From Roseicyclus marinus (GTDB taxonomy: Bacteria; Pseudomonadota; Alphaproteobacteria; Rhodobacterales; Rhodobacteraceae), in assembly GCF_030163795.1 (NCBI RefSeq), contig NZ_JASJOF010000003.1, positions 171,501-235,500 of the forward strand: a stretch of DNA of 64,000 nt, written 5' to 3'. The position numbers and the translations under genes are program-made. The notes under the pieces were generated by a model. That model saw only the letters and a list, made by a program, of their open reading frames with translations. It was not told the DNA's origin and searched no databases. Position 1 is the stretch's first letter. The number at the start of each line of letters is the position of its first letter. Shown here piece by piece: positions 48,477 to 59,099 of this stretch.

Positions 48477-48560
48477 ACCCCCCGCACCTCTTGGCATTGA
48501 GGCATGTCGCGCGGACTGCTAGACCGCGCGCAACATGACAGGATCAACCCGGAGAGACCG

Positions 48561-49073
48561 ATGACCGATACCCATGGCGGTTCCACCCCCGCGCAGCCCG
48601 AAGGACAGGCAACCCAGCCCGTCCTGCCCAAGATGCAAGTTCTCGGGCAATTCGTGCGCGACATGTCCTTCGAGAATATCGCCGCCCAGAAAGCGGTGAA
48701 TGCCTCGGTGCAGCCCGACATCCAGGTTCAGGTCGCCCTCGACGCCCGCAAGCGCGAGGCCGAGGATCAGTACGACGTCATCATGAAGCTCAAGATCGAA
48801 AGCCGCACGCGCGAGGAAACGCCTCAGCCGATCTTCCTGATGGAGATGGAATACGGCGGTATCTTCAAGGTCGAGAATGTGTCGAACGAACAGCTGCATC
48901 CCTTCCTGCTGATCGAATGCCCGCGAATGCTGTTCCCCTTCGTGCGTCGCATCGTGTCGGACGTGACGCGCGATGGCGGCTACCCGCCGCTGAACCTCGA
49001 CTCGATCGATTTCCTTGCGCTCTACCGCCAGCAGCTCGCCCAGCGCGCCGCGACCCGCAAAGCAGACGCCTGA
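48561..49073 (+). CDS. secB: Protein-export chaperone SecB
   Basis: 170 residues from ATG 48561 with CCGGAGAG upstream. The core (VLGQFVRDMSFENIAAQ ... PFLLIECPRMLFPFVRRI ... GGYPPLNLDSIDF) is characteristic of SecB, a tetramer that keeps preproteins unfolded and delivers them to SecA. Position near dnaQ-coaE-aroE-maf is typical of the alphaproteobacterial origin region. Confidence 0.97.
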   Translation: MTDTHGGSTPAQPEGQATQPVLPKMQVLGQFVRDMSFENIAAQKAVNASVQPDIQVQVALDARKREAEDQYDVIMKLKIESRTREETPQPIFLMEMEYGGIFKVENVSNEQLHPFLLIECPRMLFPFVRRIVSDVTRDGGYPPLNLDSIDFLALYRQQLAQRAATRKADA

Positions 49074-50377: not shown

Positions 50378-51210
50378 TCCGCCAGAACCGCTTGCCGCAG
50401 ATCGTCATCCACCAGCGGTGTGTAGCCGAACCAGCGTTCGAACCCCGGCACCGCCTGATGCAGCAACATGCCCAAGCCATCCACCGTTTCGCAGCCCGCC
50501 GCCCGCGCCGCTTGCAACAGCCCGGTTTCCAGCGGGGCGTAAACGATATCGGTCACGACGGTCGGCGGGCTCAACCGCGACAGGTCGATGGTCAGCGGCG
50601 GCTGCCCAGTCATGCCAAGCGAGGTCGTGTTCACGATCAGGGCCGAGCGTTCGACCAGATCGGGAATTCGTGTCCAATCCTGCGGTTCGACCCGCGCCCC
50701 GAATTGTTCCTTCAACCCTTCGGCCCGCGCCCGCGTCCGGTTGGCGACGAAAACCTGAGGCGCACCATCCGAAATCAGCGCCGAAATGATCGCCTTGGCC
50801 GCGCCGCCCGACCCCAGAACCAGCGCCGGACCAACTGATGCGCTCCATCCCGGCAGCTTTTGCCGGATGTTCGACAAGAACCCCTGCCCATCCGTGTTGT
50901 CCGCCTGGATACGCCCGTCGCCCAGAAAGGTCAGCGTATTCGCCGCCCCGATCAGTGCGGCGCGGTCCGTCACGGTCGATGCGAGATCCAGAACGTATTC
51001 CTTGTGCGGAATCGTGATGTTGACGCCCACAAACCCCATCTCGGGCAAAATGCGCAGCGCCTCGGCAAGATTGGCGTGGGTGATGTGCAAGGGAACGTAA
51101 TGTCCCTTCAACCCGTAACGGCGCAACCAATGCCCATGCAGCCGGGGCGACAGCGAATGCGAGATCGGATCGCCGATAACCCCGGCGAGGGGGATGGCGG
51201 GACGGATCAT
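50374..51210 (-). CDS. aroE: Shikimate dehydrogenase
   Basis: 278 residues from ATG 51210 (MIRPAIPLAGVIG), with GGAGG upstream; the longer frame is maf out of phase. Substrate motif GDPISHSLSPRLHGHW, catalytic Lys/Asp in INITIPHKEY and ADNTDGQGF, NADP motif VLGSGGAAKAIISAL. It reduces 3-dehydroshikimate in the aromatic pathway. The start overlaps the maf stop. Confidence 0.95.
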   Translation of the reverse strand: MIRPAIPLAGVIGDPISHSLSPRLHGHWLRRYGLKGHYVPLHITHANLAEALRILPEMGFVGVNITIPHKEYVLDLASTVTDRAALIGAANTLTFLGDGRIQADNTDGQGFLSNIRQKLPGWSASVGPALVLGSGGAAKAIISALISDGAPQVFVANRTRARAEGLKEQFGARVEPQDWTRIPDLVERSALIVNTTSLGMTGQPPLTIDLSRLSPPTVVTDIVYAPLETGLLQAARAAGCETVDGLGMLLHQAVPGFERWFGYTPLVDDDLRQAVLAE

Positions 51211-51815
51211 GCAAACCTCCAGCCGCGCAAGCGCAGGTGTGAACATAGTTCCAACAAGGGAAGGCCCAGTACGCTGAACCAATCCCCCTCGATCCGGGCG
51301 AACAGGCGCGCACCCGATGCTTCGGCCTGATAGGCGCCGACGCAACCTTCGACCTCAGGCCATGCGCGATCGAGGTAATCGTCGATTTCCGCCGCGGTCA
51401 CTTTGTGCATCGTCATCCGCGCGACCCCGACATGCCGCCAGACGGGCTGGGTATCTTCATACAGAACCGCTGCCGAATAAAGGTGATGCGTCTGCCCCGA
51501 CAACCGCGCCAGATGCTCTGCCGCTTCTGCTCGATCCTCCGGTTTTGCGAAAATCTCGGATTTCAGCGACAGGATCTGGTCGCACCCCAGCGTCAGACCC
51601 TGTGCCGCAACCTTCCGCGCCTTCGCTTCAGCCAAGGCATCCGCCACATCCCGCGGGGTTGCCCCATCCGCCACAAGCGCCGCACGGATCGCGTCTTCGT
51701 CGACGCGGGCGATCTTCACATCATGCCCGATTCCCACGCGCGCCAGCATCTGGGCACGGATCGGCGATCCGGAGGCGAGCAAAAGGCGGTCGATCTGCGG
51801 TGAAAAGCTGTCCAT
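51207..51815 (-). CDS. maf: Maf-like nucleoside triphosphate pyrophosphatase
   Basis: 202 residues from ATG 51815 (MDSFSPQIDRLLLASG). Maf family: LLASGSPIRAQMLARVG replaces the usual SPRR by SPIR, then LGCDQILSLKSEIFAKPED and WPEVEGCVGAYQAEASG. These enzymes hydrolyse non-canonical or canonical NTPs. First gene of the leftward block next to the candidate origin. Confidence 0.93.
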   Translation of the reverse strand: MDSFSPQIDRLLLASGSPIRAQMLARVGIGHDVKIARVDEDAIRAALVADGATPRDVADALAEAKARKVAAQGLTLGCDQILSLKSEIFAKPEDRAEAAEHLARLSGQTHHLYSAAVLYEDTQPVWRHVGVARMTMHKVTAAEIDDYLDRAWPEVEGCVGAYQAEASGARLFARIEGDWFSVLGLPLLELCSHLRLRGWRFA

Positions 51816-52337
51816 GATCCTGTTGATAACGGAGGGGCAGAGGTAGGGACAATCCTGTTGACGGGTCCCCATCCCGCTTTTCTTGCCATGATCTACCGGA
51901 AAACACCGCTTTCATGCGGCACCCATGCACGGGGACAGGATATTCACCCTGCGCTGGGCATGGAACTAGCCACTCGCATCTATCCGCTTTTTTCCACAGG
52001 TTCGTCCTACCCTCATTATCGTATAAACTACTGATAAATATATATTTTTTTACATATTCGTAAAGTTGTGAGCATGTGCTGAACAGATTGATCCCTGTGC
52101 ATCCTTTGGGGGAGATATCCGGGACATCGGGTTTTCCCCACTTATCCACGGTCCTAAGCCTACAAACATCCTTTCTTATTTTTTTCTCTTTTTAAGAGAG
52201 ACCAGGCCCGGCCGGTCCTCGCTTGACAGGCGGGGTCTTGGCGCTTAGCTCTCGGCCAACCCCCGTCCGGGGGCTGTCTTCCTTTCTTGCACAGAAAACG
52301 CGACCGCCACTGCGCCGTCCGTTTCCGGGACATTTCC
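51816..52337. other. Candidate chromosomal replication origin (oriC)
   Basis: 522-bp gene-free gap between divergent maf and rho, with an A/T-rich tract at about 52012-52066 that stands out from the GC-rich window. DnaA-box-like 9-mers, each one mismatch from TTATCCACA: 51821-51829 (minus strand), 51990-51998 (TTTTCCACA) and 52142-52150 (TTATCCACG); a weaker one is at 52132-52140. The flanks (maf-aroE-coaE-dnaQ-secB and rho-mnmE-mnmG-rsmG-parAB) match the Caulobacter-type origin neighbourhood. hemE, which usually adjoins, is absent. Promoters of maf and rho must also lie here. Confidence 0.68.
52185..52273 (+). promoter_or_regulatory. Structured rho leader
   Basis: Palindrome TCTCTT-TTT-AAGAGA at 52185-52199 and hairpin CCCCC-GTCC-GGGGG at 52260-52273, upstream of rho. 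rho genes are commonly autoregulated by attenuation in their leader; that function is inferred here. Confidence 0.4.
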
Positions 52338-53609
52338 ATGACAAAGACGACGCTGACGCTGGCCGAACTGAAAGCCAAGTCGCCCAAAGACCTTCTGGCC
52401 ATGGCCGAAGAGCTGGAGATCGAAAACGCCTCGACCATGCGCAAGGGCGAGATGATGTACGAAATCCTCCGCGAACGCGCGGATGAGGGCTGGGACATCA
52501 TCGGCGACGGCGTACTCGAGGTTTTGCAAGACGGCTTTGGCTTCCTCCGCTCGCCCGAGGCAAATTACCTGCCCGGCCCGGATGACATCTACGTGTCGCC
52601 CGACATGATCCGCCAATATTCGTTGCGCACCGGCGATACTGTCGACGGCGTCATGGTCGCGCCCAAGGACAACGAACGCTATTTCGCTCTGGTCAAAGTC
52701 CAAAGCATCAATTTCGAAGATCCCGAACGCGCCCGTCACAAGGTCGCCTTCGATAACCTCACGCCGCTTTACCCCGATGAACGGCTCAAGATGGAAATCG
52801 AGGATCCGACGATCAAGGATCGCTCCGCCCGCATCATCGACCTCGTGTCGCCCATCGGCAAAGGCCAGCGCGCGCTGATCGTCGCGCCGCCGCGCACCGG
52901 TAAGACGGTTCTGCTGCAAAACATCGCGCATTCCATCGAAACCAACCACCCGGAATGCTACCTGATCGTTCTTCTGATCGATGAACGCCCAGAAGAAGTC
53001 ACCGACATGCAGCGCAGCGTGAAGGGGGAGGTGATTTCCTCCACCTTCGACGAACCCGCAACACGCCACGTTGCCGTTGCTGAGATGGTCATCGAAAAGG
53101 CCAAGCGGCTTGTCGAACACAAGCGTGACGTGGTGATCTTGCTCGACTCGATCACCCGCCTTGGCCGCGCCTTCAACACGGTCGTTCCGTCCTCGGGCAA
53201 GGTTCTGACCGGTGGCGTGGATGCCAACGCGCTCCAGCGCCCCAAGCGCTTTTTCGGTGCCGCCCGGAATATCGAGGAGGGCGGCTCGCTCACCATCATC
53301 GCGACTGCCCTGATCGACACCGGCAGCCGTATGGACGAGGTCATCTTCGAAGAATTCAAGGGCACCGGTAACTCGGAAATCGTGCTGGATCGCAAGGTTG
53401 CCGACAAACGCGTCTTCCCCGCGATGGACATCCTCAAATCGGGCACAAGGAAAGAGGAACTGTTGGTCGACAAGATCGATCTGCAGAAAACCTATGTCCT
53501 GCGCCGTATCCTGAATCCGATGGGGACGACGGATGCCATCGAATTCCTGATTTCCAAGCTCAAGCAGACCAAGACGAACTCGGAATTTTTCGAATCCATG
53601 AACTCCTAA
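52338..53609 (+). CDS. rho: Transcription termination factor Rho
   Basis: 423 residues from ATG 52338 ([20 protein letters not shown]). N-terminal RNA-binding domain with [18 protein letters not shown]-loop [12 protein letters not shown], Walker [15 protein letters not shown] and the R-loop segment. Hexameric RNA helicase that ends transcription. It starts the rightward block rho-mnmE-mnmG-rsmG-parA-parB. Confidence 0.97.
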
Positions 53610-54901: not shown

Positions 54902-54917
54902 TGTTTCACATGAAACA
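54902..54917. other. parS-like centromere site at the mnmG start
   Basis: TGTTTCACATGAAACA differs from the consensus parS TGTTTCACGTGAAACA at one base. It covers the mnmG ATG (54910). Confidence 0.78.
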
Positions 54918-56775: not shown

Positions 56776-57398
56776 CCGAGGATGACGCAAAGGCCCGGAT
56801 CGCCGCGCGTGTTTCACGTGAAACACTGGAAAGGTTGGAGCTTTTCGTCGCGCTTCTGACCAAGTGGCAGAAAACCATCAACCTGATCTCGCCCGCCACC
56901 CTGCCGCAGATCTGGTCGCGCCATATCCTCGATTCGGCGCAAGTGCTGGATCATGCGCCTTTGGATGCCGGTTCTTGGGCTGATCTGGGCAGCGGCGGCG
57001 GCTTTCCTGGCCTTGTCTGTGCCGCTATCGCGCATGAGACGCGGCCCGATCTTCGTTTCAACATGGTGGAGGCCGATTTGCGCAAGGCCGCGTTTCTGCG
57101 CGAAACCGCGCGCCAAATGGGCCTGACCGTCGGTGTCTTCAGCCGCCGGATCGAGGATATGCCACCCCAATCCGCCGATATCGTGTCGGCCCGCGCGCTT
57201 GCCGCGCTCGATACGCTCTGCGGTTACGCCCATCTCCACCTGCGCCCCGGTGGTGTCGCCCTTTTTCAAAAGGGGGCGCGCCATGCCGAGGAACTTGAAA
57301 CCGCGCGCCAGCGCTGGCAGATGGACGTGACCACGGTTCCCAGCGTCACCGACGCCGACGCCGTCCTGTTCCGTATCGAGAACCTGACCCATGCCTGA
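56772..57398 (+). CDS. rsmG: 16S rRNA m7G527 methyltransferase RsmG (GidB)
   Basis: 208 residues. SAM motif [16 protein letters not shown], conserved [20 protein letters not shown]. It methylates G527 of 16S rRNA. Codons for VSRET near its N-terminus are a perfect parS site. It overlaps mnmG by four and parA by eight bases. Confidence 0.95.
56810..56825. other. Perfect parS centromere site inside rsmG
   Basis: TGTTTCACGTGAAACA, an exact match to the universal 16-bp parS palindrome. It lies within the rsmG coding region, 580 bp upstream of parA. It is the likely loading site for ParB (58191-59099). Confidence 0.95.
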
Positions 57399-58191
57399 CG
57401 CCAAACGCCCCCGCATCCTTGCCGTGACGAACCAGAAAGGGGGCGTGGGCAAGACCACCACCGCCATCAATCTCGGCGCGGCTTTGGCGGAACTTGGCGA
57501 ACGGGTGCTGATCGTCGATCTCGACCCGCAGGGCAACGCCTCCACCGGCCTCGGGGTCAGCCCCAAGGATCGCGACAACACCACGTATGAGCTGCTGCTG
57601 GAAGACGCGCCTTTGTCCGAGGTGATTCGTCCCACCGGTGTCGAACGCCTCCATATTGCACCCGCCACCACCGATCTCAGCTCCACGGATGTCGAACTTG
57701 GCACACAGGAAAACCGCGTCTTCCTGCTCAAGGATGCGCTGTCCTCCGATGCGGCGCTGGCCTTCGACTACGTCTTGATCGATTGCCCGCCGTCGCTCAG
57801 CCTTCTGACGGTGAACGCGCTTGTGGCCTGTGATGCCGTCCTCGTGCCGCTTCAGGCCGAGTTTTTCGCCCTCGAAGGTCTGTCACAGCTCATGCTGACC
57901 GTCCGCGACGTGCGCGAAACCGCCAATCCCGGCCTCCGCATCGAAGGCGTGGTCCTCACCATGTATGACCAGCGCAACAACCTCAGCCAACAGGTCGAGG
58001 CGGATGCCCGCGCCACCTTGGGCGATCTGGTCCTGAACACCCGTATCCCCCGTAATGTCCGGCTGAGCGAAGCGCCGTCTTTCGCCATGCCCGTGTTGGC
58101 CTATGATCCCCAGTCCAAGGGCAGCCAGGCCTATGTCGATCTCGCGGCCGAGATCCTGTCCCGCCACGCCAAACGCAAGGAACTCGCCTGA
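57391..58191 (+). CDS. parA: Chromosome partitioning ATPase ParA
   Basis: 266 residues. Deviant Walker A KGGVGKTTTAINLG, Walker B VLIDCPPSLSLLTVNAL. It forms gradients on the nucleoid and pulls ParB-parS complexes. It overlaps rsmG by eight bases and shares its last base with the parB ATG (TGATG). Confidence 0.96.
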   Translation: MPDAKRPRILAVTNQKGGVGKTTTAINLGAALAELGERVLIVDLDPQGNASTGLGVSPKDRDNTTYELLLEDAPLSEVIRPTGVERLHIAPATTDLSSTDVELGTQENRVFLLKDALSSDAALAFDYVLIDCPPSLSLLTVNALVACDAVLVPLQAEFFALEGLSQLMLTVRDVRETANPGLRIEGVVLTMYDQRNNLSQQVEADARATLGDLVLNTRIPRNVRLSEAPSFAMPVLAYDPQSKGSQAYVDLAAEILSRHAKRKELA

Positions 58192-59099
58192 TGGTCAAAA
58201 GACGCGAACGCAGCGGCCTTGGGCGCGGTCTTTCGGCGCTCATGGCCGATATCGAAACGCCCCAGACCACGGGTACTGATGCAACCCAGCGCGTGCCGCG
58301 TGACACGCGCCGCGTTCCCACCGACCGTATCCGCCCCAATCCGGACCAGCCCCGCCGCAGCTTTGCCGAAGGCGCCCTGCAGGAATTGGCGGCGTCGATC
58401 CGCGAAAAGGGTGTCATCCAGCCCCTGATCGTGCGTCCGGACCCCGTCGATGCCGACCGTTTCCAGATCGTTGCGGGCGAACGCCGCTGGCGCGCGGCGC
58501 AGCTGGCGCAACTTCACGATCTGCCGGTGATCATCCGCGATTTCGACGATACCGAGGTGCTCGAGGTTGCGATCATCGAGAATATCCAGCGCGCCGACCT
58601 GAACGCCCTGGAAGAAGCCCAAGGTTATCGCCAACTGATCGACCGCTTCGGCCATACGCAGGATCAACTGGCCCAAGCGATGGGCAAAAGCCGCAGCCAC
58701 ATCGCCAATCTGATGCGGCTTCTGGCCTTGCCAGACCCAATTCAGGATATGCTCCGCAACGGTGATCTGACCGCCGGTCACGCCCGCGCGCTACTGACGG
58801 CCGAGGATCCGCTGGCATTGGCGCGCAAGGCCGTGGCCGAGGGGTGGTCTGTACGAGACGTAGAAAAACACGCGAAATCAAAGACTTCGGGGGATACGGC
58901 GCGCCCCTCACGCGCGACGACTGGGCGTGGAACGGACAAGGATGCCGATACGCTCGCTCTTGAGGGTGATCTGAGCGCCACATTGGGAATGCCCGTCAGC
59001 ATCGACCATGACACCACCTCGGGCGAGGGGCGCGTGACGATCCGGTACCGCGATCTGACCGCGCTTGACGATCTCATCGCGCTTTTGTCGCGCGGTTAG
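58191..59099 (+). CDS. parB: Chromosome partitioning protein ParB
   Basis: 302 residues. CTP-binding N-terminal domain with AGERRWRAAQLAQL, helix-turn-helix region (DQLAQAMGKSRSHIANLMRLLALP) and a C-terminal dimerisation domain. It binds parS and spreads as a CTP-dependent clamp. It ends the rho-parB run; hemW converges five bases away. Confidence 0.96.
   Translation: MVKRRERSGLGRGLSALMADIETPQTTGTDATQRVPRDTRRVPTDRIRPNPDQPRRSFAEGALQELAASIREKGVIQPLIVRPDPVDADRFQIVAGERRWRAAQLAQLHDLPVIIRDFDDTEVLEVAIIENIQRADLNALEEAQGYRQLIDRFGHTQDQLAQAMGKSRSHIANLMRLLALPDPIQDMLRNGDLTAGHARALLTAEDPLALARKAVAEGWSVRDVEKHAKSKTSGDTARPSRATTGRGTDKDADTLALEGDLSATLGMPVSIDHDTTSGEGRVTIRYRDLTALDDLIALLSRG

Follow-up and report, generated by a model that had tools for sequence, protein, structure and literature searches.

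In Caulobacter and the rhizobia, the chromosomal replication origin adjoins hemE and is flanked by the same gene blocks as the locus described here. For the Rhodobacteraceae, an oriC beside maf is conserved according to DoriC, as stated in PMC4793288. Because of this statement, the origin that we propose here between maf and rho is a further case of a kind already known, sited where relatives keep their origins. A survey with Ori-Finder located 101 Rhodobacteraceae origins, used proximity to parAB as one criterion, and describes one strain with a GC-skew switch inside a replichore (PMC6699656). It has been suggested that parAB might act as an anchor in curating ori (PMC8116508). Marker frequency is reported for strains including Paracoccus and Cereibacter, together with a discussion of KOPS polarity (PMC13342612).

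The window, the whole 64-kb stretch of DNA that was analysed, comprises positions 171501-235500 of contig C19 in a genome (G000) of 3.62 Mb and 25 contigs. The gap between maf and rho in this window is very probably the chromosomal replication origin. It is the best origin candidate because of its DnaA-box clustering, its conservation, its proximity to parS and parAB and the place of the equivalent gap in relatives opposite a terminus-like switch, and on this evidence we agree with the initial annotation, which had proposed the gap as a candidate oriC. The three 9-mers that it had reported, each differing from the DnaA box at one position, are found in the gap, and thus in the intergenic region that adjoins maf, as in the maf-adjacent origins of the Rhodobacteraceae. 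The first of them, 5 bp away from the start codon of maf, reads TTATGCACA in 11 of the 13 genus genomes. The A/T-rich tract reported for the gap is also present. The A/T-richest 100 bp of the window lie inside it (67 of 100 letters, with starts at 51981 and 51991 in steps of 10), and by its A/T content the tract adjoining the boxes would suit a DNA unwinding element. All coordinates are collected in Table 1.

Table 1. Features of the maf–rho gap and its surroundings. Positions refer to the window, except for the four slots, which are given as distances from codon 11 of Maf and were drawn from 33 gaps.
Feature	Position	Strand	Remark
secB	48504-49073	+	
maf, left boundary of the gap	51207..51815	-	
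Candidate chromosomal oriC, whole maf–rho intergenic region, 522 bp	51816..52337	.	GC 0.52, against ~0.64 around
DnaA-box-like TTATCAACA, slot 1	51821..51829	-	one mismatch from TTATCCACA
Possible leaderless maf promoter TTGTCC, 17 bp, TTATCA	TTGTCC at 51847-51852	-	predicted from the alignment; likewise missing from the consensus scan list
DnaA-box-like TTTTCCACA, slot 2	51990..51998	+	one mismatch from TTATCCACA
A/T-richest 80 bp of the gap, probable DNA unwinding element	52013..52092	.	74% A/T; putative function
Weaker DnaA-box-like TTTTCCCCA	52132..52140	+	two mismatches
DnaA-box-like TTATCCACG, slot 4	52142..52150	+	one mismatch from TTATCCACA
Probable rho promoter TTGACA, 16 bp, TTAGCT	52223..52250	+	predicted; not listed by the consensus scan
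rho, right boundary of the gap	52338..53609	+	
parS-like TGTTTCACATGAAACA, at mnmG start	54902..54917	.	one mismatch from the palindrome; C19:226402-226417
Exact parS TGTTTCACGTGAAACA, at rsmG start	56810..56825	.	C19:228310-228325
parA (ParA-type ATPase)	57391..58191	+	
parB	58191..59099	+	
Slot 1	0-60 from Maf codon 11	-	25 boxes
Slot 2	180-230 from Maf codon 11	+	14 boxes
Slot 3	260-320 from Maf codon 11	-	14 boxes
Slot 4	290-360 from Maf codon 11	+	11 boxes

The gap is flanked by maf, aroE, coaE and dnaQ on the minus strand and by rho, mnmE, mnmG, rsmG, parA and parB on the plus strand. The divergent blocks described in the initial annotation hold for all of these genes and fail for secB, which it had counted in the left block. 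In profile searches, Maf and ParA score below the curated NCBIfam cut-offs, the Pfam domains of Maf, MnmG and ParA-type ATPases exceed theirs, and a search of the genome contigs with Maf gives two loci. An Rfam search of positions 51000-53000 returned no match up to an E value of 1, and folding of 52225-52345 gives a z-score of 0.04. As had been noted, hemE is not in the gap; it is found at C19:427275-428294, on the same contig and ~203 kb to the right.

The clustering of the boxes is beyond chance, as expected of an oriC. The window holds 10 one-mismatch 9-mers, three of them inside the gap. Both strands of G000 together carry 188 such 9-mers (101 and 87), compared with 296 matches for a reversed control pattern, and this genome count gives a chance expectation of 0.027 boxes in 522 bp. 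When the gap was shuffled 300 times with its dinucleotides preserved, no shuffle contained three or more boxes. In scans run stretch by stretch, which could miss a cluster spanning a stretch border, three boxes starting within 514 bp are found only at the maf–rho gap on C19 (432 kb, 24 matches), the contig to which this uniqueness in G000 applies, with 100 of the 188 matches listed genome-wide. The maf–rho gap is again the sole three-box place in the 1.17 Mb sampled (49 matches) from G005, a one-contig relative of the same genus. Places with two boxes number two others on C19 and two others in the G005 sample. Scored with a matrix built from other genera, the gap is the top site of C19 when the cut is 8 and takes second place, behind C19:71426, when a lax cut of 6 or more is used. 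Exact DnaA boxes are absent from the gap, and 11 are found elsewhere in G000.

maf and rho are divergent neighbours in all 13 genus genomes searched; 3 of these 13 gaps keep only one one-mismatch box. A comparison within the family covers 20 of the 24 other genomes (G020, G031, G033 and G034 are left out). At 2 of the 20 loci, maf and rho are separated by hemE as well as hemJ, at 14 by hemJ alone (among them G035, where Maf was not found) and at 4 by neither gene. Lack of hemE at this place is thus the family norm (18 of 20 loci), and the origin of the window should not be called rearranged on this ground, as had been suggested. In G000 itself the sole HemJ match is a weak, UPF0093/HemJ-like one of 72 bits, away from the origin at C11:216248-216658 (locus L156). 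Weak HemJ-like matches are likewise found in G005, G011 and G014 (74, 74 and 85 bits), and G016 has a strong match of 204 bits that adjoins rho.

The 20 family gaps hold 57 boxes in 22.7 kb, compared with 41 in 263.6 kb of surrounding DNA. Wherever hemJ or hemE is present in the gap (16 of 16 loci), the boxes (48 of 48) are located on the maf side of those genes; in G013, G016 and G027 most of them are 0.85-1.16 kb from maf, adjoining hemJ or hemE. The 34 maf-proximal gaps (13 from the genus, HKCCE4037 and 20 from the family), whose right boundaries were set by hand, as was the maf boundary of G035 (L110), contain 87 boxes, compared with a mean of 3.9 and a maximum of 11 in shuffles. A motif-free count of 6-mers in the family set is headed by TCCACA, TATCCA, CCACAG and ATCCAC, and TCCACA is present in 20 of 20 gaps with 5.3 expected. 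The same count in the genus set, after removal of the promoter end on either side, is headed by CCACAG and TCCACA. Measured from codon 11 of Maf in 33 gaps, 64 of the 77 boxes fall into four single-strand stretches, the provisional slots of Table 1, which were picked from the histogram post hoc. Genus members, which are not independent of each other, supply 13 of the 25 slot-1 boxes. Slots 1, 2 and 4 are filled in the gap of the window. In other genera, the slot-1 sequences mostly retain the CCACA of the DnaA box.

parS and parAB lie near the gap, as they usually do near an oriC. The only parS palindromes in G000 with up to two mismatches are the two in Table 1, 2.6 and 4.5 kb from the gap. 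All 7 genomes searched have a parS pair, each site exact or with a single mismatch, at a distance of a few kb from the gap on its rho side. Beyond this pair, G000 and G005 have no parS, and G004, G009, G011, G015 and G025 have one further, weaker site each.

A cumulative GC-skew minimum, a usual though not a defining correlate of an oriC, is found at the site neither in G000 nor in G005. The initial annotation had predicted one at 51.8-52.3 kb. Instead, the window has negative skew both left and right of the gap, and its cumulative curve reaches a maximum near 42-44 kb and is descending where it passes the gap. Within 32000-64000, the sign of the skew changes from positive to negative at this maximum and stays so through the gap, the opposite of the prediction for an origin located at 52 kb; perhaps local inversions close to the origin are the cause. 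From the gap to the end of C19 the skew is mostly negative.

The skew also gives rise to a second proposal, that the origin is at or near dnaA, ~116 kb left of the gap, and that the gap is a relic or a mere DnaA-binding site. We consider this very unlikely. A local cumulative minimum is located beside dnaA both on C19 (near 110 kb, with dnaA at 107 kb) and in G005 (~3.55 Mb/0, ~150 kb from the gap), so that a skew switch beside dnaA, which the initial annotation had named as evidence against its candidate, does occur in these two genomes. We infer that these minima reflect local rearrangement of near-origin segments. The maf–rho gap is favoured by the skew of G009 and G015, by the parS sites and by the fact that dnaA changes place. 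dnaA is on the maf side in G011, at 81 kb, and on the rho side in G009, at 188 kb, and in G004 it is on a different contig from rho, while maf, rho and the parS pair remain together. In all 5 genus genomes compared, the dnaA locus contains no one-mismatch box (3.5 kb each, and 2.4 kb in G005, where the locus is cut at the record start). The further parS-like site of G025, with two mismatches, is ~1.3 kb from its dnaA match and would fit an origin there. On C1 of the same genome, weak Bac_DnaA matches of nearly equal strength are found at 14 places, in open frames of 269-286 aa that probably encode the helper ATPase of an insertion element present in many copies.

The skew of G009 stays negative up to ~108 kb and is positive for the most part between 175 and 378 kb, with +0.014 at 125 kb and -0.054 at 150 kb in the stretches between. 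It turns around the gap at 140 kb and not around dnaA at 328 kb. In G015, it changes from -0.043 at 3.34 Mb to +0.060 at 3.50 Mb with the gap at ~3.477 Mb, and the positive value lies between the gap and dnaA, as expected if replication starts at the gap. The fit of G025 is weak (-0.040 at 1.08, +0.012 at 1.296 and +0.057 at 1.512 Mb, gap at 1.18 Mb); its skew parts the gap from dnaA poorly because dnaA is at 1.397 Mb.

By terminus-side KOPS polarity, the gap is placed opposite the terminus in G005, G015 and G025, as is usual for an oriC. KOPS-like GGGNAGGG octamers in G005 switch strand very sharply near 1.682 Mb (L134). The antipode of this switch is 3.458 Mb, with the gap at 3.4045 Mb and dnaA at 0/3.5525 Mb; therefore the switch does not distinguish between the two, and dnaA is balanced against it about as well as the gap. 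At the gap of G005 there is no clear KOPS switch, the polarity being roughly balanced from 2.45 to 3.55 Mb. The KOPS switch of G015 is between 1.56 and 1.74 Mb with the antipode of the gap at 1.70 Mb, and the stretch just right of the gap has KOPS counts of 0/2. In G025, KOPS and skew both switch between 3.26 and 3.46 Mb, with the antipode of the gap at 3.35 Mb. A dif search with ATAANNTNNATTATGN found nothing in any of the 6 genus genomes searched and gave matches in 8 of 13 other family genomes. With a looser score, the best site in the G005 stretches within 1.62-1.91 Mb lies at 1684949, only 3 kb away from the KOPS switch, and agrees in 12 of 14 letters; we do not regard it as dif, as a site with two mismatches or fewer is found in only 1 of 4 other genus genomes (G004).

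The gap also appears to carry promoters. TTGACAG before rho is invariant in 12 aligned genus gaps (of 13), and the alignment suggests that the slot-1 box may double as the -10 element of a leaderless maf promoter. That the gap consists of only two divergent promoters, A/T-rich accordingly, with boxes present by chance or for DnaA-controlled transcription, would agree with both elements but is extremely improbable, since A/T-preserving shuffles yield so few boxes, CCACA is mostly kept in slot 1 in other genera, an intervening hemJ or hemE leaves the boxes away from rho, and promoters alone leave parS and the position relative to the terminus unexplained.

With the gap as oriC, DnaA would bind the boxes flanking the A/T-rich tract, melt this tract and load the helicase, and two forks would then depart, one to each side. 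Segregation of the new origins would fall to ParB bound at the two parS sites to the right. More tentatively, the family may keep one orisome plan at maf, with DnaA boxes in four slots, each kept to one strand (-, +, -, +), around the A/T-rich tract, the rho-side neighbours being removed stepwise (hemE, then hemJ) and the first box possibly serving as the maf -10 in this genus; we regard this whole scheme as a possibility that is rather doubtful at present. If true, the first box would tie maf transcription to the state of the origin. The maf–rho assignment places the origin for a genus whose GC skew misleads, and the related loci with hemE and hemJ, with hemJ or with neither form a series for asking which parts of an alphaproteobacterial origin are needed.

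Sites for regulators of other alphaproteobacterial origins were also compared. CtrA TTAACCAT is absent from the 14 genus-set and the 20 family gaps. The CtrA motif TTAA-N7-TTAA (2 and 6 sites, respectively) and IHF sites (3 and 5) are above their shuffle means; we dropped both as origin evidence because the counts are too small. GANTC is found 8 times with 32.7 expected in the genus set and 36 times with 50.7 expected in the family set. This depletion is not special to the gaps because the rest of C19 is strongly depleted as well (368 kb without the window, 257 compared with 1669 in one Markov-1 resample). In the same 368 kb, GATC is above expectation (3908 compared with 2595).

The locus thus differs from the Caulobacter-type origin in that hemE is far away and not adjacent, and from Caulobacter and rhizobial origins in having no such CtrA site in the genus-set and family gaps and in the rarity of GANTC, which is general on C19. 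It differs from the Rhodobacteraceae origins listed in DoriC in that neither hemJ nor hemE lies between origin and rho in this genus, in that the boxes of the window are each one mismatch off, and in that GC skew fails to mark the site in G000 or G005. With the Rhodobacteraceae origins of DoriC and Ori-Finder, for example that described for Ketogulonicigenium vulgare Hbe602 in PMC4793288, it shares the position adjoining maf, the intergenic cluster of DnaA boxes and the nearby parAB.
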